From positions 1-26,455 of the IMG/VR virus record IMGVR_UViG_3300042541_001248: a stretch of DNA of 26,455 nt; one strand, given 5' to 3'. The notes beneath the pieces were generated by a model. That model saw only the letters and a list, made by a program, of their open reading frames with translations, was not told where the DNA came from and made no database searches. This document shows positions 4,421-22,012 of this stretch, in pieces. Numbering within the stretch: position 1 is the first letter of the stretch; every line of letters begins with the position of its first letter. A program made the position numbers and the translations under genes. The stretch is from a virus.

Positions 4421-4434
4421 CATACTTGAGACAC
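4421..4434 (-). promoter_or_regulatory. 14-nt TGTCTCA element, ligase leader
   Basis: Read in the direction of the operon this is GTGTCTCAAGTATG, 14 bases before the ligase start. It is one of 12 copies in the window. The distance to the start codon is too short for a promoter, so an operator (roadblock) or RNA element is more likely. Confidence 0.6.
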
Positions 4435-4435
4435 T

Positions 4436-4474
4436 GGTCGGCCGCCCCGGCAGCAACGAGCCACCGGGGCGACC
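4436..4474 (-). other. GC-rich hairpin beside the element, CGTTG loop
   Basis: The arms CGCCCCGG and CCGGGGCG form an 8-bp stem, extended by GGT/ACC. The coding-strand loop is TGGCTCGTTGCTG. No U-run follows, so it is not a classical terminator. Three similar hairpins occur at other starts in this operon. Confidence 0.6.
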
Positions 4475-4485
4475 TCCCATACCGA

Positions 4486-4821
4486 TCACTTGATTGGGTG
4501 GACGCGGAGCGCCTCACCTCTCGGACTCATGGCGAAGAACACGCCGGCGTTGTTGCCCTCGTCATCGCATGACGCATAAAGGATTCCACCGTCGTTGAGG
4601 TCGAGGGCAATGGCACCGCCAGCGCCGTCCCAGCCCTCACGCTCCAGTTCCTTGGCGTTCATAAACCGCACTCGCAGGATCGTCCTGCCAGTGGGCCAAG
4701 CAACGCGACGGGGAGCCCTGCGAGACTTTGCTTTCTTGCAGTGCTTGCCCATGCCCAAGGCTTCGTCCATGATCTCCTGCAGCGCAGGGATGCCACCCTT
4801 CACCGCCTTGACGTTAGCCAT
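4486..4821 (-). CDS. Hypothetical early protein, 111 aa
   Basis: The start ATG at 4821 is preceded by AGGAGGTGGCGA, an excellent ribosome site. Residues 25-45 are basic (KHCKKAKSRRAPRRVAW). The C-terminal part (GGAIALDLNDGGILYASCDDEGN, then AGVFFAMSP) looks like a beta-sheet domain. No family recognised. It overlaps the upstream gene by 8 bases and is separated from the ligase gene by the element-hairpin leader. Confidence 0.66.
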   Translation of the reverse strand: MANVKAVKGGIPALQEIMDEALGMGKHCKKAKSRRAPRRVAWPTGRTILRVRFMNAKELEREGWDGAGGAIALDLNDGGILYASCDDEGNNAGVFFAMSPRGEALRVHPIK

Positions 4822-5206
4822 TCGCCACCTCCTTCACGCCGAAGTGATTGCGGATAGCGTCCCGGCAGGCGGCGGCTTGAAAGCCGCGGCCCATCTTGCA
4901 CTCGTACTCGATGCCGAGGTCCGCACAGATCACCTCGATGAGAGGCAACCCATAGACGCCAAGCAACTGCGGGACAGGCTTTCCATCCGACCCGAAGATC
5001 GTGGACTTGTAGTCCGACAAATCGCTCTCGTAGCAATCGGTGTGCTGCGCGACAATAGCCGGCGGCGCACCAATCTCCGTGAACGCTTCGGGCGTGAAGA
5101 TCGTGTGGCCGTCGCAGATGTCCGCGACCTTTAATACGATCTCCTTATCGACGTTGGCCCAAGAAAGCCGTTCTTTCTTGGCGTATCGCTTCTGACGCTT
5201 TGCCAT
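4814..5206 (-). CDS. Hypothetical early protein, 130 aa
   Basis: The ATG at 5206, with GAAGGAG upstream, gives MAKRQKRYAKK and a basic first 12 residues. The longer frame to 5293 would read through the hairpin leader. The middle has IVLKVADICDGHTIFTPEAF and a region around YESDLSDYKSTIFG. I recognise no family. It is translationally linked to the next gene (8-base overlap). The 87-base leader contains a GC-rich hairpin (5226-5267) and the 14-nt element (5272-5285). Confidence 0.68.
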   Translation of the reverse strand: MAKRQKRYAKKERLSWANVDKEIVLKVADICDGHTIFTPEAFTEIGAPPAIVAQHTDCYESDLSDYKSTIFGSDGKPVPQLLGVYGLPLIEVICADLGIEYECKMGRGFQAAACRDAIRNHFGVKEVANG

Positions 5207-5225
5207 GATGGCACTCCTTCTGAAG

Positions 5226-5267
5226 GCTCGCCGCCCTGCCGACAACGCATCGAACAGGGCGACGAGC
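5226..5267 (-). other. GC-rich hairpin in early leader, CGTTG loop
   Basis: The arms GCTCG plus CGCCCTG pair with CAGGGCG plus CGAGC, with one mismatch. On the transcribed strand the loop holds GATGCGTTGTCGG. It lies between the 14-nt element and the AAGGAG site of the gene starting at 5206. No U-run follows. Confidence 0.6.
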
Positions 5268-5271
5268 GGAT

Positions 5272-5285
5272 CACTGGTGAGACAC
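5272..5285 (-). promoter_or_regulatory. 14-nt TGTCTCA element
   Basis: Reads GTGTCTCACCAGTG along the operon. It lies 8 bases after the stop of the upstream gene (5293) and immediately before the hairpin at 5226-5267. Confidence 0.58.
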
Positions 5286-5292
5286 AAACACA

Positions 5293-6168
5293 CTACGAGT
5301 TGGCGTTAACCGACTCATCGATCTGACCGCAACCTTCCGCGAACTCCTCCCGCAATGCCCGCAGCGTATCCGCGGCGTGAGTGACCTGAACGATGTTCGT
5401 CACGACAAGCCGCTTCGTCGCGTACCCAAGGTTCTTGGCGACCGCGTGAAGCAAGTCATCCACGAACCAACTGAGCGCGAGGTGCGGCTGGTCTGTCGGA
5501 CAGATCACCGCGCCGGTCGCATGCTTAAAAGCCATCATGCTGGTCACGACCTTCAACAAATCCTCAACGATGCTTTTGCTGTACCCGTCCCGCGTGAACT
5601 CGGCCTCTGCGCCGTAGTGAACGCGGGAAGCAGCGTCTGCCATCCCGTTGATAGCCTTTGCCCACGCATCCACCTCGGCGCTGTATGGCAGATTCGTCTG
5701 CGCGTCAGGAGCCTGCCCAGGCCGCACGATGCGGGCCGGGAGCGTATGGTCCCTTGCAATCGAGAACGGATGACCCTTCTGCGACGGCAGCACCGCACCC
5801 CGTCCGATTTGCTCCAGCGCCTCGGAAGACCGCGTGATGCGTTGCTGCACCTCCTCTTGCCACTTGTCGTACTCGCTTCCGTTAACTTCACATTCATCGC
5901 AAGCGTCCGCGATGATCCCCGGAGTGGTGTCCATGTTCTCGCACCCATCCGGCACACTGATATCCTTCAACCCCCTGACAACCGCGTCGAGGCATTGCTT
6001 AGTCTCCGCGTCTTCAAGGTCGCTCTTCTGCGACTCCAACTCGTCCTTGTACGTGTCGAGTTCGTCGCGGAACGTCTCGACCGAACTGATCAGATCATCC
6101 AAGTCGCTCACGATTTCGCTCACGCGGTCCGAGTCGATCTTGCACTTGTCAAAAAACTTGCCGTTCAT
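5293..6168 (-). CDS. Hypothetical early protein with N-terminal coiled coil
   Basis: 291 aa. Residues about 12-68 (SDRVSEIVSDLDDLISSVETF, then DELDTYKDELESQKSDLEDAE) have the heptad spacing and charge of a coiled coil. Cysteines cluster at 59-94 (one in KQCLDAVV, others in DGCENM and DACDECEV). The rest is mixed helical with no recognised domain. The protein is acidic overall. The start ATG at 6168 has only a weak AAGGG. The leader carries the longest hairpin of the series (6192-6235) and a copy of the 14-nt element. The function is unknown; the long coiled coil suggests oligomerisation. Confidence 0.7.
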   Translation of the reverse strand: MNGKFFDKCKIDSDRVSEIVSDLDDLISSVETFRDELDTYKDELESQKSDLEDAETKQCLDAVVRGLKDISVPDGCENMDTTPGIIADACDECEVNGSEYDKWQEEVQQRITRSSEALEQIGRGAVLPSQKGHPFSIARDHTLPARIVRPGQAPDAQTNLPYSAEVDAWAKAINGMADAASRVHYGAEAEFTRDGYSKSIVEDLLKVVTSMMAFKHATGAVICPTDQPHLALSWFVDDLLHAVAKNLGYATKRLVVTNIVQVTHAADTLRALREEFAEGCGQIDESVNANS

Positions 6169-6191
6169 AAATCACTACCCTTCGTGGTTGT

Positions 6192-6235
6192 GGCACCGCG
6201 AGGCGACTACAACGTGTAGCCGCCCTCGCGGAGCC
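6192..6235 (-). other. Long GC-rich hairpin in early leader, CGTTG loop
   Basis: CCGCGAG pairs with CTCGCGG, then GGCG with CGCC and CTAC with GTAG, leaving an ACGTT tip on the transcribed strand; outer GGC/GCC extend the stem. This is nearly 18 paired positions, followed by no U-run. It lies between the 14-nt element and the start codon at 6168. Confidence 0.68.
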
Positions 6236-6239
6236 GAAT

Positions 6240-6253
6240 CAAATGTGAGACAG
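6240..6253 (-). promoter_or_regulatory. 14-nt TGTCTCA element
   Basis: Reads CTGTCTCACATTTG along the operon. It is placed about 10 bases after the stop of the upstream DUF932-like gene and directly before the hairpin at 6192-6235. Confidence 0.6.
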
Positions 6254-6263
6254 AAACACCAAA

Positions 6264-7010
6264 CTAGACCGCCATCGCCTTGGAGTTGAGCAAGCCGCAG
6301 TGTGCATCCATGAGGCCATGCAGACGCTGAGTCCGTTCCGCAAGAAGCAGCGGCGACGACTCCTTGAGCACCTCAGTGACCGCGTTGAACATCCTCCATG
6401 CCGACCAAGACACCGCGAACTCCTCGTGCGTTGGGAACTCCCACCGCGTGATGAGGTTGTCGATGAGCCGGGTCGGTATCACGTTCGTGCGAAGCGCCTG
6501 CAACATGATGTAGGCCGCCTCCTTCTTCTTCTCGATCTCCGTGGCCTTGTAGGCCGCGATCCTCTTGTCCTGCGAGCCGCGCGACTCAAGGAGTTGCGTG
6601 GCCGCGGAACACACCAACCTGGGCAACCGCTCCATCACGTGCTTGGTGTGCTTCGTCTGCACCTTGACCTCGCCGCTGAACGACAGGTTGGAGCAGACGA
6701 ACACCCGTGCACCGAGCAGCAACGCGACAGGGAAGGACATATCGTGGGAGTTGCGAATCCCAACGGCGAGTCCGTAGTCCTTGTCCTGCGTGGACCGCAG
6801 GTCGAGCACACCGAACATGCGCTTGCCGTCCCGAGCGATGAGGTATTCCTCGCCCGCGACTTCCAGCGAATGCCCGCAAATCGTTTGCTCGACCTGTTGA
6901 ATCACGAAGTCGTGCGGAATCGGTTTCCACGTGTCGGTCGCAGCCGGCGTGGGAATCTTCCGCAGTTGACTCCGAGACACAACACAACCGTCACCAAGAA
7001 TCCTAGACAT
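6264..7010 (-). CDS. DUF932-like phage/plasmid protein
   Basis: 248 aa. The central block YGLAVGIRNSHDMSFPVALLLGARVFVCSNLSFSGE (residues about 80-115), followed by KHTKHV, is the hallmark of the DUF932 (phage/plasmid-like) group. The N-terminal part (PTPAATDTWKPIPHDFVIQQVE) matches the family's usual lead-in. The biochemical role of DUF932 is not established; members are common on mobile elements. The ATG at 7010 has AGGAG 9 bases upstream. A partial 14-nt element (TGTGTCTCGG) lies inside its 5' coding region. Confidence 0.82.
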   Translation of the reverse strand: MSRILGDGCVVSRSQLRKIPTPAATDTWKPIPHDFVIQQVEQTICGHSLEVAGEEYLIARDGKRMFGVLDLRSTQDKDYGLAVGIRNSHDMSFPVALLLGARVFVCSNLSFSGEVKVQTKHTKHVMERLPRLVCSAATQLLESRGSQDKRIAAYKATEIEKKKEAAYIMLQALRTNVIPTRLIDNLITRWEFPTHEEFAVSWSAWRMFNAVTEVLKESSPLLLAERTQRLHGLMDAHCGLLNSKAMAV

Positions 7011-7090
7011 AACAAACTCTCCTATGCCGCTACTAGAAAAGGTGGCGAGCCGCGGCCCTCACGCTACCCGAAAATTCCTAAAACGGTCAT

Positions 7091-7888
7091 TCAAGACACA
7101 AAAGAAACCCGACCCTCGCGAATCGCCTTGTTGAGAATGAGAGTCTCCACCGCGTTGGCGTGACGCTCGATTGCAACCGACGCTTTCTGAATCTCTCCAA
7201 CGGCACGATCCGCACCAAAGCAAGCCATGCAGTCGATGCACTGCATTCGCTCTCCCGCCTCGTATGACGCGGGGCAGTTAAACTCGCCGCGGGATACCGG
7301 CTCGGCGTCAAACGATGTGCAGTCGCGGAACGTCCTCCATCCCATATCCCATGCGAGATCACGTTGGGCGATGGAATGAACCGATGCCATGAAGTACGAG
7401 CGATAGCCTTGAAACTCTCGCCGCCTCCACTGGTGCGTGTAGCCTGTCCAGCCGCCGGCCACAACAGTTGACCATCGCCGCACGATCTCCATCGGAATCA
7501 GCACGGGCTCGCCGTAGCCGCCCCATCGGATTGCACGATCCCGCAGCCAGCGGTCGTGAATCTCTGGGTCGTACTCCTCGTAGCCGCCGCCGCGGTAGCA
7601 CTCCCACACCGCACGCGGTGCGTTCTGCACAGCGACATAGCACCCCGCGATCAGATGCAGAGGACAGTCCAAACACGTTGCATGCGTCTCGCCGCGTTGC
7701 TTGGCGTCTGTCGGACTAACATCGTCGCGAACGATCCACACCGTGACCATGTCGCCGGTCTTATCGTTCTTGCTCCGCAGCGTGGCAATCACAACGTATG
7801 GATCGCCCGTGCCAGGGGAGATGCCGCGATGTACCACGATGCCCTTCGGCTCTTTATGCCGCTTGCTCTTCTTGCTGCGCATAATCAT
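7091..7888 (-). CDS. Conserved phage protein with GYTHQW and cysteine-pair motifs
   Basis: 265 aa. Recognisable blocks in order are DMVTVWIVRDDVSPTDAKQRG, the cysteine pair CLDCPLH followed by GCYVAVQNAPRAVW, YGEPVLIP, WTGYTHQWR at about 147-155, a C-terminal CPASYEAGERMQCIDCMACFG, and a final helical tail. These are shared by a family of uncharacterised phage and actinobacterial or planctomycete proteins (in my recollection labelled DUF7227 or unnamed). The cysteines suggest metal binding. The function is unknown. The start ATG at 7888 has AAAGG upstream. Confidence 0.8.
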   Translation of the reverse strand: MIMRSKKSKRHKEPKGIVVHRGISPGTGDPYVVIATLRSKNDKTGDMVTVWIVRDDVSPTDAKQRGETHATCLDCPLHLIAGCYVAVQNAPRAVWECYRGGGYEEYDPEIHDRWLRDRAIRWGGYGEPVLIPMEIVRRWSTVVAGGWTGYTHQWRRREFQGYRSYFMASVHSIAQRDLAWDMGWRTFRDCTSFDAEPVSRGEFNCPASYEAGERMQCIDCMACFGADRAVGEIQKASVAIERHANAVETLILNKAIREGRVSFVS

Positions 7889-7906
7889 TGCTTAGACCTT
7901 TCCGTG

Positions 7907-8254
7907 TTAGTTCCACCGGGACTTACGCTTCATCTGCGCGATAACGACCGCGTCGTTATGATCCTTGCGCATTTGCTCGAACTCCGTGATCAGCGCTACA
8001 ACGTCTTCGATCAGCCGCTCGTCCTCTGCGACCTCACGCAAAAGAAGGAGAAAGTGCTTCGCGAGCCGCGTCGGCATCGGAATGCAGTCAAACGACATAC
8101 AAGCCGCCGCCATCATCTTTGCCCTCACCACCCTGTCCGCGGGCAGTTCGACACGATCAGACCCTTCCGGCGTTGAGCCAAGTTGCTGATCCATTGCTTC
8201 CCGCTCCTTATCGTTAAAGAAAAGCCAACCATCGCCCGCGTCGATGTAAATCAT
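7907..8254 (-). CDS. Hypothetical early protein, 115 aa
   Basis: The start at 8254 is chosen because GGAGG precedes it; the longer frame to 8293 reads through a hairpin. The protein starts MIYIDAGDGWLFFND, has a helix-rich centre (PADRVVRAKMMAAACMSF, TRLAKHFLLLLREVAEDERL) and ends basic (MKRKSRWN). No family recognised. The leader contains the hairpin at 8285-8307 and the 14-nt element at 8317-8330. Confidence 0.68.
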   Translation of the reverse strand: MIYIDAGDGWLFFNDKEREAMDQQLGSTPEGSDRVELPADRVVRAKMMAAACMSFDCIPMPTRLAKHFLLLLREVAEDERLIEDVVALITEFEQMRKDHNDAVVIAQMKRKSRWN

Positions 8255-8284
8255 CGGAACAACCTCCGTGCTGCGCGACCCGCC

Positions 8285-8307
8285 CCCGGCCACGACGAGT
8301 GACCGGG
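8285..8307 (-). other. Hairpin in early leader, CGTCG loop
   Basis: CCCGG/CCGGG and CAC/GTG stems are separated by one mismatch, leaving a TCGTC loop on the transcribed strand. It follows the 14-nt element and precedes the GGAGG of the gene starting at 8254. No U-run. Confidence 0.55.
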
Positions 8308-8316
8308 AGCGTGCCG

Positions 8317-8330
8317 CATATGTGAGACAC
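8317..8330 (-). promoter_or_regulatory. 14-nt TGTCTCA element
   Basis: Reads GTGTCTCACATATG along the operon. Its first base is the last base of the TAG stop of the upstream gene, so it starts exactly where coding ends. Confidence 0.6.
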
Positions 8331-8566
8331 TAGATGAACACTTCACATTCCGTGGCCTCGACAACGCCGATCCGCAGACCGTCCTTCGCGTACCACTCGC
8401 CCGCCGCAAAGTTGGGGCAGGCCCCATCCTTGGCGAACCAGAACCACTGCTCCTCGCCAAGAATCTGGCGAATGAGCCTCGTCGCCTCGTATGCCGCATC
8501 GTCGTAGTCCTTCGACACCTTCACGATCTCCGCGACGTTGTCACGCATTGCAAGCATCACCCACAT
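8330..8566 (-). CDS. Hypothetical early protein, 78 aa
   Basis: The start ATG at 8566 has AAAGGAG upstream. The sequence begins MWVMLAMRDNVAEIVKVSKDY, continues with the helix AAYEATRLIRQILGEEQWFWF, and ends in a small beta-like region (GLRIGVVEATECEVFI). I recognise no family. It belongs to the run of short early genes with similar leaders. Confidence 0.64.
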   Translation of the reverse strand: MWVMLAMRDNVAEIVKVSKDYDDAAYEATRLIRQILGEEQWFWFAKDGACPNFAAGEWYAKDGLRIGVVEATECEVFI

Positions 8567-8591
8567 GGACCCACTCCTTTCTTTAGAGAAA

Positions 8592-8990
8592 TCACTCGTA
8601 CACTGCCGATGACCGGAACGAACGCGAACCGGCCACTTTCTCGATCACGATCTCAAACTCCGACGGGCCATCCGGCTCTGGCAGATAGTCGGCGTCGAGT
8701 CCCCGCTCGTCGCACCAATCGACCTCGCGAGAGCATCGCTCCCCGTATGCCCGCCGCGACTCGGCAGACATCTTTTCGGCCCGCACCGCGACAGCCAGGG
8801 CGACCTGACCCGCCAACGATTTCGTCGGGTACTTAGCCGACTTGACTAGGATCAAGTCGTGCCGCCACCAGCCGCCCTCTTCTGGGCCTCCGTACTTGCA
8901 AGTCCGCTCGTAGAGGGAGACGAATGTCTCCTCCGCGTTTTCGGCCTTGAGGCACACTTCATCGAACGCCGCACTAAAGAAACTGCTCAT
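8592..8990 (-). CDS. Conserved phage protein with YGGPEEGGWW motif
   Basis: 132 aa from the ATG at 8990, which follows a CTACAGAAAGGG leader box; the longer frame to 9257 overlaps the next gene. The motif KYGGPEEGGWWRHD (about 34-47) recurs in uncharacterised proteins of many phages and plasmids. The middle part (SLAGQVALAVAVRAEKMSAESRRAYGERC) is helical, then comes LDADYLPEPDGPSEFEIVIEK. Function unknown. Confidence 0.72.
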   Translation of the reverse strand: MSSFFSAAFDEVCLKAENAEETFVSLYERTCKYGGPEEGGWWRHDLILVKSAKYPTKSLAGQVALAVAVRAEKMSAESRRAYGERCSREVDWCDERGLDADYLPEPDGPSEFEIVIEKVAGSRSFRSSAVYE

Positions 8991-9030
8991 GTGAAACCCT
9001 TTCTGTAGGTTTAGGAATCGAACTACCGCA

Positions 9031-9291
9031 CTACTCCCACCAACGCTCTTCGCTCGGCTTGCCGCCTTTGGCCTTGCATTGCGCGATGAGGCCCGACCAC
9101 TCTGCCAGCAAGTCCTCTGACTCGCCGCAGTCGGACATCTGATTCTCAAGGCCGCACTTGTCGTAGCACTCAGCGCACAGCCCCGCGTGCTCGTTGTCAC
9201 CCCGGCCTGTCGAGCGAGTGGCCCGCTTGCATTCGTTGCACGTGTAGCACCCGCCAACGCTGAACCTGTTTCGCACTTTCCGCATGGTCAT
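9031..9291 (-). CDS. Zinc-ribbon phage protein with TRxTGRG motif
   Basis: 86 aa from the ATG at 9291. CYTCNECKRATRSTGRGDNE and LCAECYDKC form a four-cysteine zinc-ribbon pattern that I know from small phage proteins with the CYTC-TRETGxGE core. The C-terminus (SEDLLAEWSGLIAQCKAKGG) is a short helix. The leader is the clearest in the window: the 14-nt element (9305-9318), then CTACAGAAAGGCA directly before the start. The exact role is unknown. Confidence 0.75.
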   Translation of the reverse strand: MTMRKVRNRFSVGGCYTCNECKRATRSTGRGDNEHAGLCAECYDKCGLENQMSDCGESEDLLAEWSGLIAQCKAKGGKPSEERWWE

Positions 9292-9304
9292 TGCCTTTCT
9301 GTAG

Positions 9305-9318
9305 CAAATGTGAGACAC
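9305..9318 (-). promoter_or_regulatory. 14-nt TGTCTCA element, consensus copy
   Basis: Reads GTGTCTCACATTTG and runs straight into CTACAGAAAGGCA and the start codon at 9291, only 13 bases away. A promoter cannot fit here, which argues for an operator, roadblock or RNA role. Confidence 0.65.
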
Positions 9319-9323
9319 CGCAA

Positions 9324-9890
9324 TCAGACTTCGTAATCGCACAACTCAACAAACTCTTCCCCGCCCGGCATCGTCCAGTAGCCGGGAACATCAAGGCCGC
9401 ACCGGATACGCTTTGCCGTGTCCGTCGCCTTCCATTTGGTGAGGTAGCCAAGGCCCCGCACCTCTTTCCACCGGCCCTCGAGCCGCCGATCCACGACATA
9501 GGTGGAGGCACCGACTTGCCGCACCCGCACCTCGATGGGAGGAGCCTTCGGTGCCCGCACCTTGGGGCGAACGTACTTGTAGGTGATGGCACCCATGACG
9601 CTCTGCCCGTCGAGCCCGTCGCAGATCGTCGCCGCGAACTCTGCCGCATGCTCTCTGTCATCGAACAGAGAATCGACATGGGCCGAAATAAGCCGCGGGT
9701 CGCCGGTTACTGGTCGCACCTTGACGCCCGCCACAGAGCCGCTCGGGCTATCGATCTCGACCTTCCGCACCATCGGCTTGATGTAGCGAATGGCGCTCTC
9801 CGTCTTCACGACCTCGAAGGTCGCCATCCAGCACCACCCGCCCGTCGCACGATAGATATTGTCGTTCCGAATCAGTTCCGCAGTATTCAT
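9324..9890 (-). CDS. Hypothetical early protein, 188 aa
   Basis: The ATG at 9890 follows CTATAGAAAGGCA. The protein reads MNTAELIRNDNIYRATGG, then a likely beta domain (WCWMATFEVVKTESAIRYI), a middle with LFDDREHAAEFAATICDGL, and a C-terminus (VRVRQVGASTYVVDRRLEG, then WKATDTAKRIRCGLDV). I recognise no family. The leader lacks the 14-nt element but keeps the AGAAAGG box. Confidence 0.68.
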   Translation of the reverse strand: MNTAELIRNDNIYRATGGWCWMATFEVVKTESAIRYIKPMVRKVEIDSPSGSVAGVKVRPVTGDPRLISAHVDSLFDDREHAAEFAATICDGLDGQSVMGAITYKYVRPKVRAPKAPPIEVRVRQVGASTYVVDRRLEGRWKEVRGLGYLTKWKATDTAKRIRCGLDVPGYWTMPGGEEFVELCDYEV

Positions 9891-9915
9891 GGTATTTGCC
9901 TTTCTATAGCAACAG

Positions 9916-10125
9916 TTACTTCGTCCGCTGATCGCGTCGGCACATTGCCTCCGCACACCACAGGTCAGTCGCAATCGAATCGAGATCGACGTTCCGCCAG
10001 ATCCCCCCGTCCGACGTTTCCGCAAGATGGTCGATAATCTGCGAGGCGAGTTGAACCGACTTGATGACTCGCTTGTAGAACGCAGCCTTTTGCTTCGGGG
10101 TAACTTTCTTTGCACCGCCAGCCAT
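9916..10125 (-). CDS. Hypothetical early protein, 69 aa
   Basis: Starts MAGGAKKVTPKQKAAFYKRV, basic for 20 residues, then a helix (IKSVQLASQIIDHLAETSD) and LDSIATDLWCAEAMC. No family recognised. The leader holds CTACAGAAAGGCA and, 49 bases above the start, a consensus copy of the 14-nt element (10161-10174). Confidence 0.62.
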   Translation of the reverse strand: MAGGAKKVTPKQKAAFYKRVIKSVQLASQIIDHLAETSDGGIWRNVDLDSIATDLWCAEAMCRRDQRTK

Positions 10126-10160
10126 GTGATTGCCTTTCTGTAGCAGGGTATTAGATGCCG

Positions 10161-10174
10161 CAAATGTGAGACAC
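10161..10174 (-). promoter_or_regulatory. 14-nt TGTCTCA element, consensus copy
   Basis: Reads GTGTCTCACATTTG, identical over 14 nt to the copies at 9305 and 13141. It lies 3 bases after the stop of the upstream gene. Confidence 0.65.
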
Positions 10175-10176
10175 GT

Positions 10177-10512
10177 TTAGCCGATCCGTGAGTATCCGTA
10201 GTTGGTCATCGGCCGCGTGATCCGATACTTGCCCTTCATGATCTCGCACTCGAAGCCGAATGGCCGCTTGAGCATCTTCGTGATCTTGAGTCCCTTGACC
10301 TTCCGTTTCCGAATCGCTGTCTCGATGACCTTCTGGTAGTCCGCGATGTCTTCGTACTCGCACTCATCCGCCCACCGGCAAGCCAGATGATCCATCGTCG
10401 CCGCCAGATCGTCGAATAACTTCGACATGATCGCCGCCCGCTTGGGGTCGTGGCCGTTGTCGTAGGTCGCCTTCTTGCCGCCGCGATTCTGAGGTGTCAT
10501 TGCTTTCTTCAT
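10177..10512 (-). CDS. Hypothetical early protein, 111 aa
   Basis: Two starts are possible: MKKAM at 10512 (after AGAAAGGGCTGAACG) or the ATG four codons later, preceded by AAGAAAGCA. The protein is basic with RGGKKATYDNG near the start, then LFDDLAATMDHLACRWADE, VIETAIRKRKVKGLKI and a beta-like C-terminus (CEIMKGKYRITRPMTNYGYS). No family recognised. The first residues and the leader are shared with the neighbouring gene at 10559-10780. Confidence 0.65.
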   Translation of the reverse strand: MKKAMTPQNRGGKKATYDNGHDPKRAAIMSKLFDDLAATMDHLACRWADECEYEDIADYQKVIETAIRKRKVKGLKITKMLKRPFGFECEIMKGKYRITRPMTNYGYSRIG

Positions 10513-10545
10513 CGTTCAGCCCTTTCTGTAGCAGTGTTGTTGATG

Positions 10546-10559
10546 CAAACGTGAGACAC
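10546..10559 (-). promoter_or_regulatory. 14-nt TGTCTCA element
   Basis: Reads GTGTCTCACGTTTG. Its first base is the last base of the upstream TAG stop, as at 8330. It is followed by 19 bases and then CTGCTACAGAAAGGG. Confidence 0.6.
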
Positions 10560-10780: not shown

Positions 10781-10813
10781 CGTTCAGCCCTTTCTTTAGG
10801 TCTTGGAAACCGC

Positions 10814-10833
10814 TTCGGGATTACCTTCCCGAA
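10814..10833 (-). other. Hairpin in the early operon leader
   Basis: TTCGGGA (10814-10820) and TCCCGAA (10827-10833) form a perfect 7-bp stem with a 6-base loop, 34 bases upstream of the first early start codon. It could be an operator dyad or an mRNA 5' stabiliser. Confidence 0.45.
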
Positions 10834-10842
10834 ATCACACCT

Positions 10843-10873
10843 ATATTAGACCCGAATCGGCCATTTCTGGCAA
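10843..10873 (-). promoter_or_regulatory. Candidate early leftward promoter
   Basis: The minus strand shows TTGCCA (10873-10868) and TAATAT (10848-10843) with a 19-base spacer, which is long; TCTAAT with 17 bases is an alternative reading. The placement at the head of the leftward operon supports it, but the match is modest. Confidence 0.35.
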
Positions 10874-10894
10874 GTCTTATACCCCCTATATTTT

Positions 10895-10960: not shown

Positions 10961-11202
10961 AGGTCTGCTTGGATGGCAGATGGATGCCCATCCCGAAAGT
11001 GTAGGTGTCTCACGCGCGATTCAAGGATGGCAATAAGTTGTGTAGACGAACTGTCGCACACGTGATACGTTCTCGCCTCAAAGGATGCCCCTTCGATGGA
11101 TCGATGGGGAAAGGAGCCCGCGAAGGATGTGGGTTTTCTGAGGAGTCGTGGTGGGCGGTGATGGAATGCCGCTTCCACCTATTTCACAGCAAGGAGTTGC
11201 CA
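10961..11202 (+). promoter_or_regulatory. GGA-rich csrA leader
   Basis: The 242-base leader has ten GGA triplets, several as AAGGATG (around 11024, 11081 and 11124). The last, AAGGATGTG, is close to the known CsrA-binding core AGGAUGU. The tenth GGA is the ribosome site itself (AAGGAGT). CsrA proteins bind GGA motifs in hairpin loops near start codons, so autoregulation is plausible. The leader also holds a 14-nt element at 11005-11018. No gene is seen in it. Confidence 0.4.
11005..11018 (+). promoter_or_regulatory. 14-nt TGTCTCA element in csrA leader
   Basis: Reads GTGTCTCACGCGCG on the plus strand, in the direction of the rightward operon. The first nine bases are consensus and the tail diverges. 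Confidence 0.5.
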
Positions 11203-11418
11203 ATGCTTGTGCTTACGCGCAAGGAAGGCGAAGCGGTTGTGATTCCGCGAGCCTTGATCCGCGTGACCGTTACGCGGATCGATGGAAACCGAGTGAAGTT
11301 GGGTTTCGAGGCCCCGCAAGGTTTCGATGTGTTTCGAGAAGAGTTGCTGGCAGACCTGAGAGACAGGGACTACCGGCGTCAATCCCAAGAAAGGAGCGGT
11401 GCAGATGAGCATCGTTGA
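11203..11418 (+). CDS. csrA: CsrA/RsmA-family RNA-binding regulator
   Basis: 71 aa from the ATG at 11203, chosen because AAGGAG precedes it and because CsrA proteins begin MLVLTRK-GE. The core is complete: MLVLTRKEGEAVVIP, IRVTVTRIDGNRVKLGFEAP and FDVFREELL, the last holding the arginine that contacts the GGA motif. An extra 15-residue polar tail follows. CsrA dimers bind GGA-containing mRNA leaders and alter translation or stability. As the first gene of the recombination operon it may redirect host or phage mRNAs. It overlaps the next gene by 14 bases. Confidence 0.9.
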   Translation: MLVLTRKEGEAVVIPRALIRVTVTRIDGNRVKLGFEAPQGFDVFREELLADLRDRDYRRQSQERSGADEHR

Positions 11419-13116: not shown

Positions 13117-13131
13117 TCATTAGGGCTGCGT

Positions 13132-13169
13132 CCGGGGCGAGTGTCTCACATTTGGGACGCTCGCCCCGG
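13132..13169 (+). promoter_or_regulatory. Perfect 10-bp hairpin holding a 14-nt element in its loop
   Basis: CCGGGGCGAG (13132-13141) and CTCGCCCCGG (13160-13169) form a perfect 10-bp stem. The consensus copy GTGTCTCACATTTG (13141-13154) starts on the last stem base and fills the loop. The structure lies between recT and the next gene's AGGAGG. No U-run follows, so attenuation, mRNA processing or protein binding is likelier than intrinsic termination. Confidence 0.68.
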
Positions 13170-13194
13170 CGGGCCGCGCAAGGAGGCAAGCGCT

Positions 13195-13940: not shown

Positions 13941-14567
13941 ATGGAAAAAGATGAATTCAACGAGTGGCTGAAGCGGCATCAGAAGGCATATCCCGCGATG
14001 GTGGATTGGTTTGCGAACCTCCCTGACCAGAACGGCACGCTGGGCCTGTGGTTCGACGTTCTGCGGTGGGTGGACAGGGCTCACGCCGACGAGGCGACGA
14101 TGCGAATGATGAGAGGCGTCGAGCCGTTGGTGAAGTTTACGAACTGGCATGACACCCCGCGGTTCGTTACCGATCACGCTTCGTGTCTCAAACGTGAGTC
14201 AAAGCCAAGGCGCACGTTCGCTGTGCCGGAAGGCGATGAAGAGATTCGCTACGCATGCGCGACGTGCCGGGACACGGGCATCGTGGATGTGTTTCACGGC
14301 AGGGACGTTAAGGCAGTGCGTAAGGGCAAGTTCACTGCCGTGACGCTGCATCGCTCTGCGAGAGCGTGCTCCTGTGCAGCGCAGGCCCGCTACAAGGGCA
14401 TGATCGAAAAGGGCGACCTTCCGATCTTCAACGACGTTGTTGATGTGATCATCCCAAACGACAGGCCAGCGTGCACGGCGGCCACAGCAGAGCAAGACAT
14501 CCAGTGCATCGCGGAGTCCTACGACTCCGGTCCAGTGTCTCTTGACGATTGGGTTTCTTCACACTGA
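13941..14567 (+). CDS. Zinc-binding hypothetical protein after the initiator gene
   Basis: 208 aa from the ATG at 13941, with AAGGAG upstream. The N-terminal half (MEKDEFNEWLKRHQKAYPAMVDWF, then WFDVLRWVD) is helical and resembles the zinc-poor N-terminal part of loader-type proteins. Residues about 105-155 hold YACATCRDTGIVDVF and, later, ACSC, a CxxC...CxC ribbon. It sits where helicase loaders (lambda P-like) usually follow the initiator, but I see no AAA or Walker motif, so the role is open. The internal GTGTCTCAAACGTG at 14183 matches the 14-nt element. Confidence 0.7.
   Translation: MEKDEFNEWLKRHQKAYPAMVDWFANLPDQNGTLGLWFDVLRWVDRAHADEATMRMMRGVEPLVKFTNWHDTPRFVTDHASCLKRESKPRRTFAVPEGDEEIRYACATCRDTGIVDVFHGRDVKAVRKGKFTAVTLHRSARACSCAAQARYKGMIEKGDLPIFNDVVDVIIPNDRPACTAATAEQDIQCIAESYDSGPVSLDDWVSSH
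14183..14196 (+). promoter_or_regulatory. 14-nt TGTCTCA element inside a coding region
   Basis: Reads GTGTCTCAAACGTG and includes the palindrome CTCA-AACG-TGAG. It is the only copy lying well inside a gene, so it may be chance. Confidence 0.3.
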
Positions 14568-15274: not shown

Positions 15275-15303
15275 TGTTGGCGCATTTGTGAGACACACAC
15301 TAG
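15271..15303 (+). promoter_or_regulatory. Inverted repeat enclosing a reversed 14-nt element
   Basis: CTAGTGT (15271-15277) and ACACTAG (15297-15303) are perfect 7-bp arms around a loop containing CATTTGTGAGACAC (15283-15296). That is the element GTGTCTCACAAATG on the minus strand, opposite to transcription. It lies between rusA and the ParB-DUF4417 gene, which has only a weak ribosome site. Confidence 0.55.
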
Positions 15304-15313
15304 ACTGAGCAAT

Positions 15314-16758: not shown

Positions 16759-16780
16759 TCGCTTCCCCGATCAACCGCTC

Positions 16781-16815
16781 GGCGGGAAGGGCCGGAAAGC
16801 CGGAATCCTCCCGCC
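16781..16815. terminator. GC-rich hairpin between converging genes
   Basis: GGCGGGA (16781-16787) and TCCCGCC (16809-16815) form a perfect 7-bp stem around a centre with further GGC/GCC pairing. It lies between the end of the rightward basic-protein gene and the end of the leftward peptidase gene, as expected of a bidirectional terminator. There is no T-run on either side. Confidence 0.5.
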
Positions 16816-16831
16816 GGGCGGCGCTCGGCCG

Positions 16832-17215
16832 CTAGGCCCTCGTAAACCAGCGAACCACAAGCCAATTACCTCGCCGGTATTTGGAGTGCTTCAGCCTTCC
16901 AAGTTCTGGGTCAAGAACGTCAGGCCCATCAATGGCGATGAAATGCCCTCGATGCTTGCCCGCCTTGCGAATTAGCGCTGCGCAGCAGTCTCGCGGAGTC
17001 TTGGCAGTCCGAAACGGATCTCCCTGCCCAGACCTAGTCGCCACCACGGGCGAACCCAGCACGCTGCACGTTGCGATAAACTCGTTGACGGTCAGCCCAT
17101 CGTGCGACTCATTGTTTGGGTCCGCTTGGCAAGCCTTTGTCCATGACGTTCCTGCCACCATCGCCGCGGTCGCTATGCCGCAGTCAATCTCGTTCCATTG
17201 CCGTACTAGCCGCAT
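16832..17215 (-). CDS. C39-like papain-fold cysteine peptidase
   Basis: 127 aa from the ATG at 17215, with AGGAGG 11 bases upstream; the longer frame to 17386 crosses a promoter-like region. The motif QWNEIDCGIATAAMV with C12 is the C39-type nucleophile region. GHFIAIDG with H91, then VLDP with D102, supply the other catalytic residues. The size is that of single-domain C39-like peptidases. It is the only leftward gene in the right part of the window, with its own promoter and a hairpin at its end, which is typical of a moron. The substrate is unknown: peptidoglycan-linked or host peptide cleavage, or protease-type defence interference. Confidence 0.83.
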   Translation of the reverse strand: MRLVRQWNEIDCGIATAAMVAGTSWTKACQADPNNESHDGLTVNEFIATCSVLGSPVVATRSGQGDPFRTAKTPRDCCAALIRKAGKHRGHFIAIDGPDVLDPELGRLKHSKYRRGNWLVVRWFTRA

Positions 17216-17260
17216 TGTTACAATCCTCCTTGCATAACGTGGAAAAGACCGAAAAGGGCC

Positions 17261-17266
17261 ATTGTA
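17261..17266 (-). promoter_or_regulatory. Candidate extended -10 for the peptidase gene
   Basis: The minus strand shows TGG then TACAAT (TGN-TACAAT), an extended -10. No good -35 is seen. A start near 17255 would give a leader of about 40 bases. A rightward TGT-TACAAT lies at 17216-17224, facing this one. Confidence 0.4.
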
Positions 17267-17279
17267 CCACACCCCCCAA

Positions 17280-17501
17280 ATGGCTACATTACCACACGAA
17301 AAAAACGATGCGATAAATCTAGCGGCTCTGACGCCCGAGCAGATGGCAGATATTCTGTCGAAGGCGGGTGGCAAGACGATTGACATAGATCAAGTTGCCC
17401 GCGACATAGAGGCTGGCGCTCCGACAGACAAGGACGGCAATCTCAATATGCTGGCCTACGCTGCGTGGTTAGCCCGCGAGGCACAGGCGCAAGGGCATTG
17501 A
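17280..17501 (+). CDS. Small terminase-associated protein with YAAWL module
   Basis: 73 aa from the ATG at 17280 (79 aa from a TTG at 17262). The sequence reads LAALTPEQMADILSKAGGKTI, then VARDIEAGAPTDKDGNLNMLAYAAWLAREAQ. It immediately precedes TerL and shares with the TerL N-terminus the pattern V...I...G...DG.L...YAAWL. It is probably the small-terminase-like or helper DNA-binding component, by position and similarity. The ATG lacks a Shine-Dalgarno site. Its stop (TGA) overlaps the likely TTG start of TerL. Confidence 0.68.
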   Translation: MATLPHEKNDAINLAALTPEQMADILSKAGGKTIDIDQVARDIEAGAPTDKDGNLNMLAYAAWLAREAQAQGH

Positions 17502-19819
17502 GACTCGACCTTCAAAAACTCTCCGTGCCGGAAGCCGCGAGAGTGCTCAACAGCACTGCTATAGGCGAGGTCATATCGCCGCGTGTTGTCTACCGGCACC
17601 TTAACAGGGCGGGTCTGAAGATTGGCGACGGGCGGTCGCTACATGTTGTCCGGTATGCCGCGTGGCTATTCAGCGTCCGCAGCGAAGCAAAGCCAGAGCC
17701 GGGGAGCGAGAGGGCCGACTACGAGAAGGTTAAGTCTGCTGCTGCAAAGCGGGCTAGGAACATCTCGGAAGCGGGACGCGACATAGCCGACGAAGATTGG
17801 GTGCGGCCAGCAAAAGACCAGACACGCAAAGATGCCGCGACCATGGGGTTCCGCGCTTTCTGCGATGCCTACTTTCCGCAGTTGTTTCACCTCCCATGGT
17901 CTGACGATCATCTACGAGTGATCTCAAAAATCGAGCGGGCGGTTCTCGAGGGAGAACTTTTTGCGATGGCAATGCCCCGCGGCAGCGGCAAGACAACGCT
18001 TTGCGAAATGGGCTGCATCTGGGCGCTGATGATCGGTGCGCATGAGTTTGTCACCCTCATAGGATCGGACGAGGGTCATGCCGCGGACATGCTCGACTCC
18101 ATCAAAAGCGAACTGGAAAACAACGATTTGCTGGATGAGGATTGGTCAGAAATAACAGGCCCGATTCGGGCGCTGGAGGGCATCCACCAAAGAGCGAAGG
18201 GGCAGTTGTTCAGCGGAGAGCGGACCCACATTGGCTGGACATCTGGAGAGATCGTTCTCCCCACCGTCCCCGGCTCGATGGCATCGGGAGGCATCATTCG
18301 CGTCGGAGGGATCACGGGCCGCGTTCGTGGAATGAAGTTCAAGAGGCCAGACGGCAGAAGCGTTCGGCCGTCGCTTGTATTGGTGGATGACCCACAGACA
18401 GACGAATCCGCAAAGTCTCCAAGTCAGTGCGCGACGCGAGAGGCGATTCTGTCTGGCGCTATCCTCGGCCTCTCAGGCCCCGGCACCAAAATCGCCGGAC
18501 TTATGACGCTCACCGTCGTTCATCAAGATGACATGGCAGATCGCATGCTCGACCGCACCAAACACCCAGCATGGCAGGGCGAGCGGACCCGCATGGTCTA
18601 TGCGTTCCCGAAAAATGAAGCGATGTGGGCGCAATACCGCGACCTTCGCAGGGGAGGGCAGGCAGAAGGGACAGGGACAGAGGCGGCCACTCGGTTCTAC
18701 ATGGAGAACCAAGCAGCGATGGACGAAGGGTCTTTGGTGTCGTGGCCGGCTCGGCATGACCCCGGAGAATTGTCGGCGCTTCAACACGCGATGAACATCC
18801 GGTGCGACCGCGGGGATAATGCCTTTTATGCGGAGTACCAAAACGAGCCGCTGCCATCGCTCACGGACCACATGGAGGTGCTGTCTGCGGAGGTAATTAA
18901 CAAGAAGAAAAATGGATACAAGCGCGGAGTCATACCCGCAAAGGCCAACAGAATTACGGCATTCATCGACGTGCAGCAGACTATTTTGTATTGGGTCGTG
19001 TGCGCGTGGGAGGATGATTTCAGCGGTGCAATCATCGACTACGGCACCCATCCAGATCAGGGGCGGGCATATTTCACGATGCGTGACGCGAAGCGCACGA
19101 TCCAGATTGAACACCGCGAGTCCGCGTTTGAATCAAACCTCTATGTGGCGCTGGAGAAGTGCGTCACCACGCTCGCATCCCGCGAATATCGCCACGACGA
19201 TGGCACATCGCAGAGGATCGAGAGGATGATGATCGATGCGAATTGGGGTTCCTCTACGGATATCGTTTACCAATTCTGCCGCGCCTCTCCATTCGGAAGC
19301 ATCGTAATGCCGTCGCACGGACGTTACGTAGGCGCATCGTCTTTGCCATTCTCTGAATACGCGAAGAGGCCGGGGGATCGCGTTGGGCCTAATTGGCGTA
19401 TTCCGGGTACGGCAGGGAAGAGGGCCGTAAGGCACTGCGTTTATGACACTAACTTTTGGAAATCATTCGCAACCGCCAGATTCCAGACTTCAATCGGTGA
19501 GCCGGGGTGCCTGACGCTGTTTAGCGACTATGACCACGGGCTGCTGTGCGACCATTTACTGGCAGAGGCTCCGGTGCGAACGGAAGCCAGAGGCCGAGTC
19601 GTGGACGAGTGGAAAACCAGAATTGTGGGGCAGGATAACCATTGGCTGGACTGCCTTGTAGGCAACTGCGTGGCGGCTTCGATGTGCGGTGTTAGGACAG
19701 TGGGTGTCGATGCCCAGGCGGGCGTTAGGAAGAAATACACAGGCGCGAGCGTCGGCGCAACACGAAAATCCTTTGGAAAGCCGCCGTTTGGTGAATCAAT
19801 AGAGAATCCGCTACGATGA
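17498..19819 (+). CDS. Terminase large subunit, GpA-like
   Basis: About 773 aa from the TTG at 17498, which overlaps the upstream stop; a GTG at 17465 is the other option. Residues 10-58 form an HTH-like module (LSVPEAARVLNSTAIGEVI, then VRYAAWLF). Walker A is MPRGSGKTT (about 159-167) and Walker B is LVLVDDPQ (about 293-300). The C-terminal nuclease has acidic residues in FIDVQQTILYW, MMIDANWGS and NHWLDCLV. This is the lambda gpA-type family that cuts concatemers and pumps DNA into the head. The product of the next gene fits the connector position. Confidence 0.92.
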   Translation: MRLDLQKLSVPEAARVLNSTAIGEVISPRVVYRHLNRAGLKIGDGRSLHVVRYAAWLFSVRSEAKPEPGSERADYEKVKSAAAKRARNISEAGRDIADEDWVRPAKDQTRKDAATMGFRAFCDAYFPQLFHLPWSDDHLRVISKIERAVLEGELFAMAMPRGSGKTTLCEMGCIWALMIGAHEFVTLIGSDEGHAADMLDSIKSELENNDLLDEDWSEITGPIRALEGIHQRAKGQLFSGERTHIGWTSGEIVLPTVPGSMASGGIIRVGGITGRVRGMKFKRPDGRSVRPSLVLVDDPQTDESAKSPSQCATREAILSGAILGLSGPGTKIAGLMTLTVVHQDDMADRMLDRTKHPAWQGERTRMVYAFPKNEAMWAQYRDLRRGGQAEGTGTEAATRFYMENQAAMDEGSLVSWPARHDPGELSALQHAMNIRCDRGDNAFYAEYQNEPLPSLTDHMEVLSAEVINKKKNGYKRGVIPAKANRITAFIDVQQTILYWVVCAWEDDFSGAIIDYGTHPDQGRAYFTMRDAKRTIQIEHRESAFESNLYVALEKCVTTLASREYRHDDGTSQRIERMMIDANWGSSTDIVYQFCRASPFGSIVMPSHGRYVGASSLPFSEYAKRPGDRVGPNWRIPGTAGKRAVRHCVYDTNFWKSFATARFQTSIGEPGCLTLFSDYDHGLLCDHLLAEAPVRTEARGRVVDEWKTRIVGQDNHWLDCLVGNCVAASMCGVRTVGVDAQAGVRKKYTGASVGATRKSFGKPPFGESIENPLR

Positions 19820-19835
19820 ACCCGGAGGTGACGGC

Positions 19836-20117
19836 ATGATTACGCAAGAACAAATGAACTCGCTTGTTGCCGCACTACTGGCAAATGCCGCTGGCCCAGC
19901 CAGCGCGAGCAATGACGCGGGAAGCGTCACAGCCCGAAGTGTTCCCGAACTCATTGAGGCAGTGAGATTCGTGGCCTCCATGAAAGCCGCCTCTAATCCG
20001 CAAAACAGGGGCCTTCGGATGAATGCCCTTCGACCCGCCGGCGCTGCGTTTGGGCACGGCGAGTTGAACGCTATGGATCAACTGGAACTCATGTGGCTTA
20101 ACAGAAGGTTCGTGTGA
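19836..20117 (+). CDS. Small head-tail connector-position protein (gpW-like place)
   Basis: 93 aa, with CCGGAGGTGACGGC as ribosome site. It lies exactly between TerL and portal, where lambda-type phages encode the gpW head-tail joining protein. The N-terminus MITQEQMNSLVAALLANAA is helical, followed by VPELIEAVRFVASM. The C-terminal MDQLELMWLNRRF is not a clear gpW match, so the family call rests on position. It is followed after one base by the portal GTG. Confidence 0.68.
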   Translation: MITQEQMNSLVAALLANAAGPASASNDAGSVTARSVPELIEAVRFVASMKAASNPQNRGLRMNALRPAGAAFGHGELNAMDQLELMWLNRRFV

Positions 20118-20118
20118 A

Positions 20119-21900
20119 GTGGGACTGCTTGACCGTCTGATCGGTCGCAAGCAAGCGGACACAACGGCACGAAAAGCCCCACAGATTTCACCCCAGCGGC
20201 TACGCGGCCGATACGATGCCGCGCAGACGACGAACGATAATTTCAATCATTGGGTGATGGCAGATCCGCTTTCTGCGGATGCTGGCATGACGCCGGCGGT
20301 TCGTCGCGTCTTGCGAAATCGCGCCCGATACGAGGCGGCGAACAACTCGTACTGCAAGGGGATGGTGCTCACGCTTGCAAATGACACCGTTGGGACCGGC
20401 CCACAAATCAAGGTGAACACGAACAGTCCCGCCGCCGACAGGATTATCGAGAAAAACGTCCACGCTTGGTTGGATGCAATCGATATCGCGAGGAAATTGC
20501 GAACAATCCGCTACGCGCAGTGCGTTGATGGCGAAGTTTTTGGGATGATGGTGACCAACGAGCGGCTGTCGGGGGTGCAACTCGACTTGCGGCTGGTAGA
20601 GGCTGACCAGATCGCAACGCCGACTCCATGGATGCTCAAGGAAGTCGATGGAATTGAGTTTGATGCAGCAGGCAACCCTTCCATCTACCACTTGCTGAAG
20701 AAGCATCCGGGTGCGCTCTACAACCTACCGAGCATGGAATACGACCGCGTTGACGCAAACATGGTCATGCACGTGTTTCGATCTGACCGCCCTGGGCAGC
20801 ACCGTGGGGTGCCGGAACTGACGCCTGCGCTTCCCCTATTTGCCATGCTCCGGCGTTACACACTGGCGACTCTGTCCGCTGCCGAAACGGCGGCAGACTT
20901 TGCGGCGGTTCTGTTTACCAACGCTCCCGCGAACGATTTGCCCGACGTTGAGCCGTTTGTCCCGCTGAACATTCAGCCGCGGTCAATGATGGCTCTTCCA
21001 GAGGGGTGGCAACTCGGGCAAATGCAGAGCGAGCAGCCGACAACCACATACGCAAACTTCAAGTCGGAAATCCTTAATGAAATTGCCCGCTGCTTGAATA
21101 TGCCCTTCAACATCGCCGCATGTAACAGCAGTTCGTACAACTACAGCAGCGGCAGGCTCGACCACCAAACGTATTTCAAGTCGATACGTATCGAGCGAAG
21201 CGGCCTGCAATACAAAGTCCTTGACAGACTATTTCGCGGGTGGATCAACGAGGCAGAAGACGTTGGCGGCCTTATTCCAGAGGATGCTGGCCCCGCCAGT
21301 GAGTGGAGTTGGTCGTGGGTGTGGGATGGCAACGAGCACGTTGACCCGCAATCAGAGGCCAGCGCGCAGCAGATGCGTCTGGAATCCAACACCACGACGC
21401 TCGCAGCGGAGTACGCAAAACTCGGCAAGGATTGGGAAATTGAACTGGAGCAACGAGCCAGAGAACTTGAGCGGATGCGGGAACTGGGAATCTTGCCGGC
21501 GGGCATGGCGGCACCCCTTGAAAATGAAGAGCAAAAGCAGGGCCCGCCAGACGAAGACGAGGCCGAAGTCGCAATGGAAGCAGGATTTAAGCCGCCGCAG
21601 GCCGCCAGAGCAGAGGCTGCGCGTGGCCTCGCATGGCGAAAAGAATACGGCAGGGGCGGCACCGCGGTAGGGCTCGCGAGAGCAAGAGACATCGCTGGTG
21701 GCAGGCCGCTTTCGGCAGACACAATCAAACGCATGGTGTCATTTTTTGCCCGCCACGAAGTGGACAAAAAGGGCAAAGGCTGGAGGCCGGGATCGGAAGG
21801 CTATCCTTCAAACGGCCGCATAGCGTGGGCTCTGTGGGGTGGTGATCCGGGGCGCGCTTTCGCAAGCAAAATCGCAAAGAAACTCGACCGCGGAGGGTGA
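20119..21900 (+). CDS. Portal protein, lambda gpB-like, with C-terminal extension
   Basis: 593 aa from a GTG. Residues 1-470 match lambda-type portals: MGLLDRLIGRKQ, RGRYDAAQTTNDNFNHW, SADAGMTPAVRRVLRNRARYEAANNSYCKGMV, then VDGEVFGMMV, HRGVPELTPALPL and RLDHQTYFKSIRIERSGLQ. From about residue 490 an added domain follows: WRKEYGRGGTAVGLARARDI, then LSADTIKRMVSFFARHEVDKKG and IAWALWGGDPGRAFA. I know this domain as a stand-alone or protease-linked unit in phages. The portal forms the ring through which DNA enters. The extra domain might tether other head components. Confidence 0.92.
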   Translation: MGLLDRLIGRKQADTTARKAPQISPQRLRGRYDAAQTTNDNFNHWVMADPLSADAGMTPAVRRVLRNRARYEAANNSYCKGMVLTLANDTVGTGPQIKVNTNSPAADRIIEKNVHAWLDAIDIARKLRTIRYAQCVDGEVFGMMVTNERLSGVQLDLRLVEADQIATPTPWMLKEVDGIEFDAAGNPSIYHLLKKHPGALYNLPSMEYDRVDANMVMHVFRSDRPGQHRGVPELTPALPLFAMLRRYTLATLSAAETAADFAAVLFTNAPANDLPDVEPFVPLNIQPRSMMALPEGWQLGQMQSEQPTTTYANFKSEILNEIARCLNMPFNIAACNSSSYNYSSGRLDHQTYFKSIRIERSGLQYKVLDRLFRGWINEAEDVGGLIPEDAGPASEWSWSWVWDGNEHVDPQSEASAQQMRLESNTTTLAAEYAKLGKDWEIELEQRARELERMRELGILPAGMAAPLENEEQKQGPPDEDEAEVAMEAGFKPPQAARAEAARGLAWRKEYGRGGTAVGLARARDIAGGRPLSADTIKRMVSFFARHEVDKKGKGWRPGSEGYPSNGRIAWALWGGDPGRAFASKIAKKLDRGG

Positions 21901-21904
21901 TGCG

Positions 21905-21979
21905 ATGGGGCTGGACGACTTTTGGTTTGAAGAAGAAGAAGAAGGCGACGAGTCGCTTGTTGAATTTCTCGACCTATAG
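21905..21979 (+). CDS. Tiny acidic protein, 24 aa
   Basis: Five bases after the portal stop, an ATG with GGAGGGTGATGC upstream opens a 24-residue frame: MGLDDFWFEEEEEGDESLVE and then FLDL. It is strongly acidic with aromatic residues. It lies between portal and protease genes, where small assembly factors occur. Its short length makes it uncertain; the good ribosome site supports it. Confidence 0.45.
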   Translation: MGLDDFWFEEEEEGDESLVEFLDL

Positions 21980-21998
21980 CCGCCACATAAGCGCTTGT

Positions 21999-22012
21999 CA
22001 TATTTGAGACAG
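21999..22012 (-). promoter_or_regulatory. Diverged reversed 14-nt element before capsid gene
   Basis: Reads CTGTCTCAAATATG on the minus strand, opposite to transcription, as at 15283. It sits in the only longer gap of the head operon (21980-22029). Confidence 0.42.

Follow-up and report, generated by a model that had tools for sequence, protein, structure and literature searches.

Stoperators are established in the literature for actinobacteriophages, and in mycobacteriophages of cluster A they are tied to a special two-domain, monomeric repressor. In L5 and its cluster A relatives, many short sites located mostly in gaps between genes are oriented with transcription, only a few lie in promoters, and an immunity repressor gene is present (PMC9283540, PMC6550527, PMC5712189); the L5 sites lose their effect in reverse orientation (PMC9283540). 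A comparable set of sites was found in the IMG/VR virus record IMGVR_UViG_3300042541_001248 (G000; hereafter the window, meaning the whole 26,455-base stretch that was analysed, a fragment of its virus), in which a short element with the core TGTCTCA recurs between genes. It is best read as an operator/stoperator network of a temperate tailed phage, bound by a small Cro/C1-type repressor. The network is analogous to the repressor-stoperator systems of L5 and R4 and is not a member of the L5 family, as it fails the L5 consensus, site number, and repressor architecture. No match to the asymmetric, 13-bp L5 consensus GGTGGMTGTCAAG with fewer than two mismatches was found here. L5 has 20 to 30 sites per genome, whereas 11 were found in the window fragment and 12 in a related 44.9-kb contig, G001. 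The L5 repressor has 183 amino acids and is thought to be monomeric, whereas the candidate here has 86 and consists of a helix-turn-helix (HTH) domain only. The solved cluster A repressor combines an HTH with a Stoperator domain on an asymmetric site, in contrast to the half-degenerate inverted repeat described below. Unlike in L5, the sites in promoters are counter-oriented here.

Conserved inverted-repeat sites are also present in phage phiC31. Streptomyces phages of the R4 type share with the window a repressor with many intergenic sites, the R4-type repressor also being placed at the early promoter (PMC10276819); R4 and phiC31 represent a different phage and host group, and the likeness is drawn from descriptions. 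Phage SPbeta has one master repressor, MrpR, and about ten dispersed intergenic sites, termed SPBRE (PMC10516654). However, MrpR has a tyrosine-recombinase fold, its bound sites lie in promoter regions, and no role in elongation is reported in PMC10516654. The small HTH controller protein C.Kpn2I was demonstrated both to halt polymerase during elongation and to inhibit a promoter (PMC6237814), and restriction-modification controller proteins (C-proteins) are fold neighbours of the candidate repressor; C.Kpn2I differs in exerting local restriction-modification control and not in serving a genome-wide network. Short stoperator-like intergenic repeats have been described in T1, TLS, and Stevie and in the Nostoc phages A-1 and N-1 (PMC11447400, PMC4319613, PMC4916379), for which the passages cited here identify no binding protein and describe TLS and Stevie as virulent or lytic.

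Copies, shape, and placement of the site

The pattern (G/C)TGTCTCA occurs 12 times in the window, compared with 1.8 expected, and a count of 12 was reached in 0 of 100 shuffles. All 12 copies reported in an earlier sequence-only reading of this DNA were recovered at the same coordinates and on the same strands. That reading had described a 14-nucleotide (nt) asymmetric element with a five-base spacer; the length stands, while the spacer following TGTCTCA is four bases long. The tighter pattern TGTCTCANNNNTG (TGTCTCA-N4-TG) has 11 copies against 0.36 expected, with a maximum of 3 across 100 shuffles. Ten of these 11 are intergenic, with gaps making up 8.9% of the window (P = 3e-10), and the single in-gene copy lies at 14184-14196. 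In an unbiased count of 7-mers over gaps, TGTCTCA comes out on top both in the window (11 gaps, against a null maximum of 5) and in G001 (10 gaps), whereas no repeated motif rose above the null in the motif-free phages G002, G004, G009, and G010. As had been noted before, the copies starting at 8330 and 10559 each begin on the final base of a TAG stop codon, and the copy at 9305 ends 13 bases before an ATG.

Across the copies, the consensus is an 18-bp half-degenerate inverted repeat, TGTCTCA-N4-TG(A/C)(G/T)NC(A/G), in which TGTCTCA and TG are invariant across 23 copies because the search pattern requires both. The TG is followed by A or C, G or T, any base, C (19 of 22 in the first alignment), and A or G, so that the second half is a degraded form of TGAGACA, the first half inverted. 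On average, 2.57 of the 5 positions following TG agree with this inverse, compared with 1.21 for the intergenic background, a value reached in 0 of 20,000 resamplings, and some copies are almost complete inverted repeats, e.g., TGTCTCA-AACG-TGAGTCA at 14183. The earlier description of the element as asymmetric is therefore half right, in that a strong and a weak half exist, yet together they form an imperfect inverted repeat. A repeat of this kind, whose halves differ in strength, is as expected for a dimeric HTH protein. A variant, GTGTATCACGAGTGAGGCAC, with both half-sites near the consensus, was observed in a late-operon gap of G001 (23402-23421; L110 3402-3421).

Two sites lie in probable promoters. 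Shortly before the ATG of a ParB-like gene (15314), three phages share TTGGCG-N17/18-TA(G/C)ACT, and upstream of the capsid gene (22030) the same three share TTGTCA or TTGTAT-N17-TACAC(A/C). At both promoters, the spacer between -35 and -10 is filled by an opposite-strand site in the window and G001, whereas the G002 spacer has no site. As these promoters are kept with and without the site, the operator appears to have been gained or lost while the promoter itself stayed in place.

Apart from these two loci, which are oriented against transcription, all well-supported sites are co-directional with transcription (9 of 9 for the window, 10 of 10 for G001). Counted over both phages, these amount to 11 independent loci, or 12 including the weak copy at 11005, and the two-sided probability under random orientation is about 0.001 for 11 of 11 and about 0.0005 for 12 of 12. 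Six of the window's seven early sites lie 0-11 nt past the upstream stop codon, and one lies 52 nt past it.

Distribution among related phages

Related phages were collected via RecT; one of them, G005, represents the window's own virus. G001 (contig 3300042946_000505; RecT 87%) contains 12 copies of the site and 0 matches to a reversed control pattern, whereas no copies were found in G002 and G003 (both RecT 84%) or in G004 (RecT 74%). G002 and G004 keep most of the same genes though they are motif-free. Ten sites occupy corresponding places in the window and G001, namely six gaps of the early operon, the one after recT, a position inside a gene, and the two promoters, and these places persist despite the diverged gap sequence. 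At the in-gene site, 5 of 5 codons are identical between the two phages, compared with 48% of the shared-residue codons elsewhere in the gene. Two additional G001 sites lie at 5478, at the end of the early operon, and at 11151, near the end of a DUF6378 gene. A short third record (L121), which looks like the G001 species, carries the capsid-promoter site. A fourth (L123; terminase 84%) has one copy at 4270 (+), which is located just upstream of the capsid promoter, not inside it, and in the opposite orientation. The sequence-only reading had proposed enrichment in relatives as a check on the network, and G001 bears this out, being enriched with mostly intergenic copies under the same orientation rule, while G002 and G004 are empty.

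In the gap corresponding to the site at 9305, G001 has TGTCTCAAGTTTGATCC, compared with TGTTGCCTGTTTGATCC in G002 (L112 10041-10089), and all four differences of this stretch fall in five adjacent core positions. The presence of a decayed site in a phage without the XRE and integrase genes described below suggests that G002 may be a repressor-less derivative that lost lysogeny and whose operators then decayed. An exact 14-mer scan of IMG/VR returned 40 stretches, with a clear network only in the window's own virus; scans of IMG/VR with the XRE protein and the integrase gave G001 as the sole match, and a search of isolated phages gave no close relative.

Candidate binder and predicted mode of action

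The candidate repressor is an XRE protein of 86 amino acids that matches HTH_31 (PF13560; 28.9 bits, cut-off 27) and HTH_3 (PF01381; 23.5 bits, cut-off 23). It is 80% identical to its G001 counterpart (6728-6970) overall and 83% over residues 1-77. The AlphaFold model predicts a five-helix Cro/C1 fold, and among its fold matches, all with E-values > 0.001, are ClgR, restriction-modification C-proteins (among the top matches), DdrO, SinR, and the 434 repressor. The third helix in the model (residues 44-51) is the expected recognition helix, and residues 45-56 are identical in the window and G001, which fits the identical core site in both phages. A comparison of all window proteins with the relatives left three that G001 shares and that both G002 and G004 lack: XRE, the tyrosine integrase, and an early protein of 78 amino acids. 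PF00589 was found in the window and G001 only among six records, and PF01381 had no match at E <= 0.001 in G002 and G004. XRE and the integrase thus track the presence of the motif, which supports XRE, already named as a candidate in the sequence-only reading, as the putative binder. We consider it likely that the sites form a repressor operator network bound by XRE.

An XRE dimer would probably bind the 18-bp repeat through its strong and weak halves. At the ParB-like and capsid promoters, the bound repressor would block initiation by occlusion. At the nine other well-supported sites, all within operons and seven of them between genes of the leftward early operon, the repressor may act as at stoperators. 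The strong half faces the oncoming RNA polymerase in the operons and could create a polar roadblock, mostly just after each gene, so that the prophage would be silenced gene by gene; the strong-half-first order may give this polarity. The intergenic placement and the orientation with transcription are consistent with the stoperator-like role suggested earlier, and an effect of the operon sites on elongation is marginally favoured.

The repressor gene itself may be switched by integration. In both phages, the integrase, an element resembling a phage attachment site (attP) and formed by the 3' half of tRNA-Arg(ACG), and XRE are adjacent, with the tRNA half between integrase and XRE, a gene context of the kind expected for an immunity repressor. 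The G001 tRNA half (6579-6633) lies 94 nt upstream of XRE in the same orientation. The T-stem differs by compatible changes between the two phages, as if they targeted different hosts. Integration would rebuild a host tRNA-Arg gene directly upstream of XRE, and read-through from the tRNA gene could then confine repressor expression to the integrated state. Phage BPs makes immunity depend on integration in another way, its attP lying within the repressor gene (PMC4557955). Scans with Rfam and for tRNAs gave no match in the window, and in the search for a host neither an exact scan of genome contigs for the attP tRNA sequence nor a terminase profile scan of the same contigs gave a match.

Tentatively, a stoperator system may have arisen here independently of the actinobacteriophages, with a minimal 86-residue repressor, polar half-degenerate repeats, and a repressor perhaps switched by integration via tRNA read-through. 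If so, an oriented network with a minimal HTH protein in unrelated uncultured phages would suggest that the elongation roadblock is a recurrent prophage strategy, and the order of the half-sites would offer a testable answer to the question of roadblock polarity. Promoters and operons that occur both with and without the repressor and its sites provide an unusually clean natural comparison.

Table 1. Sites, promoters, and associated genes in the window, with their state in related phages
Feature	Position	Strand	Context	Related phages
XRE (Cro/C1-type HTH) protein, 86 aa	986..1246	-	Putative repressor of the sites	
XRE-leader small hairpin	1272..1289	-	GTTTTCaagcaGGAAAAC	G001 GCTTTCaagcaGAAAGC, compatible stem changes
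Probable attP, tRNA-Arg(ACG) 3' half	1339..1393	-	92 nt upstream of XRE, co-oriented	
Tyrosine integrase, 299 aa	1569..2468	+	PF00589 above cut-off	65-68% identical in G001
Site 1	4421..4434	-	Early operon, gap 5' of DNA ligase	G001 3278-3291
Site 2	5272..5285	-	Early operon gap	G001 2374-2387
Site 3	6240..6253	-	Early operon gap	G001 1802-1815
Site 4	8317..8330	-	Early operon gap, starts on stop codon's last base	G001 44556-44569
78-aa early protein	8330-8566		No Pfam match	Present in G001, absent from G002 and G004
Site 5	9305..9318	-	Early operon gap, 13 nt before ATG	G001 44269-44282; decayed copy in G002
Site 6	10161..10174	-	Early operon gap	G001 43649-43662
Site 7	10546..10559	-	After first early gene, starts on stop codon's last base	No G001 counterpart
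Putative leftward early promoter TTGCCA-N17-TCTAAT	10845..10873	-		-10 TCTAAT conserved in G000, G001, and G002
Weak copy without TG	11005..11018	+	Divergent control region; doubtful	Not conserved in G001
Degenerate site CTGTCGCACACGTGATACG	11051..11069	+	Rightward control region	Aligns with G001 TCGTCTCACATTCGATACG; absent from G002
Site 8	13141..13154	+	Hairpin loop after recT	G001 40921-40934
Site 9	14183..14201	+	Inside gene 13941-14567, near-complete inverted repeat	G001 39787-39800
Probable ParB-like gene promoter TTGGCG-N18-TAGACT	15277..15306	+		Kept in G001 with site, in G002 without
Site 10	15283-15296	-	Within spacer of ParB-like gene promoter	
Probable capsid/protease gene promoter TTGTCA-N17-TACACA	21995..22023	+		Kept in G001 and L121 with site, in G002 without
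Site 11	21999-22012	-	Within spacer of capsid/protease gene promoter	

Competing explanations and minor features

Several observations weigh against a repressor-stoperator network bound by XRE. The full network is carried by only two distinct genomes. The confidence of the XRE model is modest (pLDDT 75), and the model was built on two sequences only. Both promoters are proposed from conservation and match the sigma-70 consensus poorly, and a promoter scan spanning the ParB-like promoter failed to pick it. The putative leftward early promoter has no site, whereas the rightward control region has the degenerate site at 11051, and silencing of the early operon would thus have to come from roadblocks alone. 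A simple dimer operator does not require a strong orientation bias. As the window is a fragment, a protein encoded in the missing part could also be the binder.

The sites could be XRE operators acting on initiation only, with a weak internal promoter in each gap and no block of elongation. Two sites are clearly within promoter spacers, and for SPbeta MrpR, arrays of operators at numerous promoters have been described (PMC10516654). However, a promoter scan of the early operon gave no promoter-like pairs beyond chance, alignments around the early sites revealed no conserved -35/-10, the copy at 9305 lies 13 nt from a start codon, and the one-way orientation in the operons would be left unexplained; we regard this explanation as unlikely. 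The element as a phage promoter in its own right was rejected, given the copy 13 nt before an ATG and the lack of a consistent sense-direction -10. A sigma-54 promoter was rejected for a spacing one base short and missing GG/GC elements. A different DNA-binding protein of phage or host, such as a host regulator (of SOS type or otherwise) or a protein encoded outside the window, is quite unlikely as the binder. Binding by XRE is itself predicted, and further small G001 proteins of no assigned function are absent from G002. On the other hand, no recognisable DNA-binding regulator other than XRE was found whose distribution follows the motif, and an HTH_17 protein of G001 has a homologue in the motif-free G004. 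A site for a host regulator would not be expected to track the phage integrase and XRE, though it could. A literature search for LexA in Planctomycetes, by title only, gave no lead. The ParB-like protein, which would imply parS-type sites, was rejected as the binder, as it is kept (59-79% conserved) in the site-free G002 and G004.

The element might instead work as RNA, as a nut-like box for antitermination or for control of translation that acts together with hairpins and is bound by a phage RNA-binding protein such as CsrA, as the sequence-only reading had also considered. The co-directional orientation in operons would suit this, long hairpins (z down to about -6) occur in many of the early gaps, several sites have a strong hairpin with compatible stem changes beside or around them, and a phage csrA is located at 11203-11418. 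Nevertheless, folding of the operon gaps of three phages led us to reject the nut-like element as the principal explanation. The hairpins persist in the motif-free G002, including the one around the site after recT, while no hairpin was found at 9305, 10161, 10546, G001 43650, and G001 44270, so the site is independent of the hairpins. Its inverted-repeat form and the two conserved promoter sites, which precede the probable start and lie on the strand that is not transcribed, point to duplex DNA. CsrA was likewise discarded as the binder, as it is kept in motif-free phages (81% in G002) and the core conserved across the 23 sites contains no GGA. An RNA-level role is thus highly improbable, and repressor binding to duplex DNA remains the preferred explanation.

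Other features of the window were also recorded. The rightward operon opens with the phage csrA, ahead of YqaJ and RecT, and csrA is retained by all close relatives. The gaps at 4408-4485, 5207-5292, 6169-6263, 8255-8329, and 13117-13194 hold long, very stable hairpins without T-tracts, which show compatible stem changes between phages, are kept in G002, and constitute a conserved RNA feature in their own right. Several early genes at 9286-10540 (-) are preceded by a repeated leader, CTACAGAAAGG, which looks like a standard ribosome-binding module. At the contig end (25548-26455), a repetitive protein with ATFNDSS-type repeats of about 16-17 residues is encoded, which is possibly a tail or host-contact protein.

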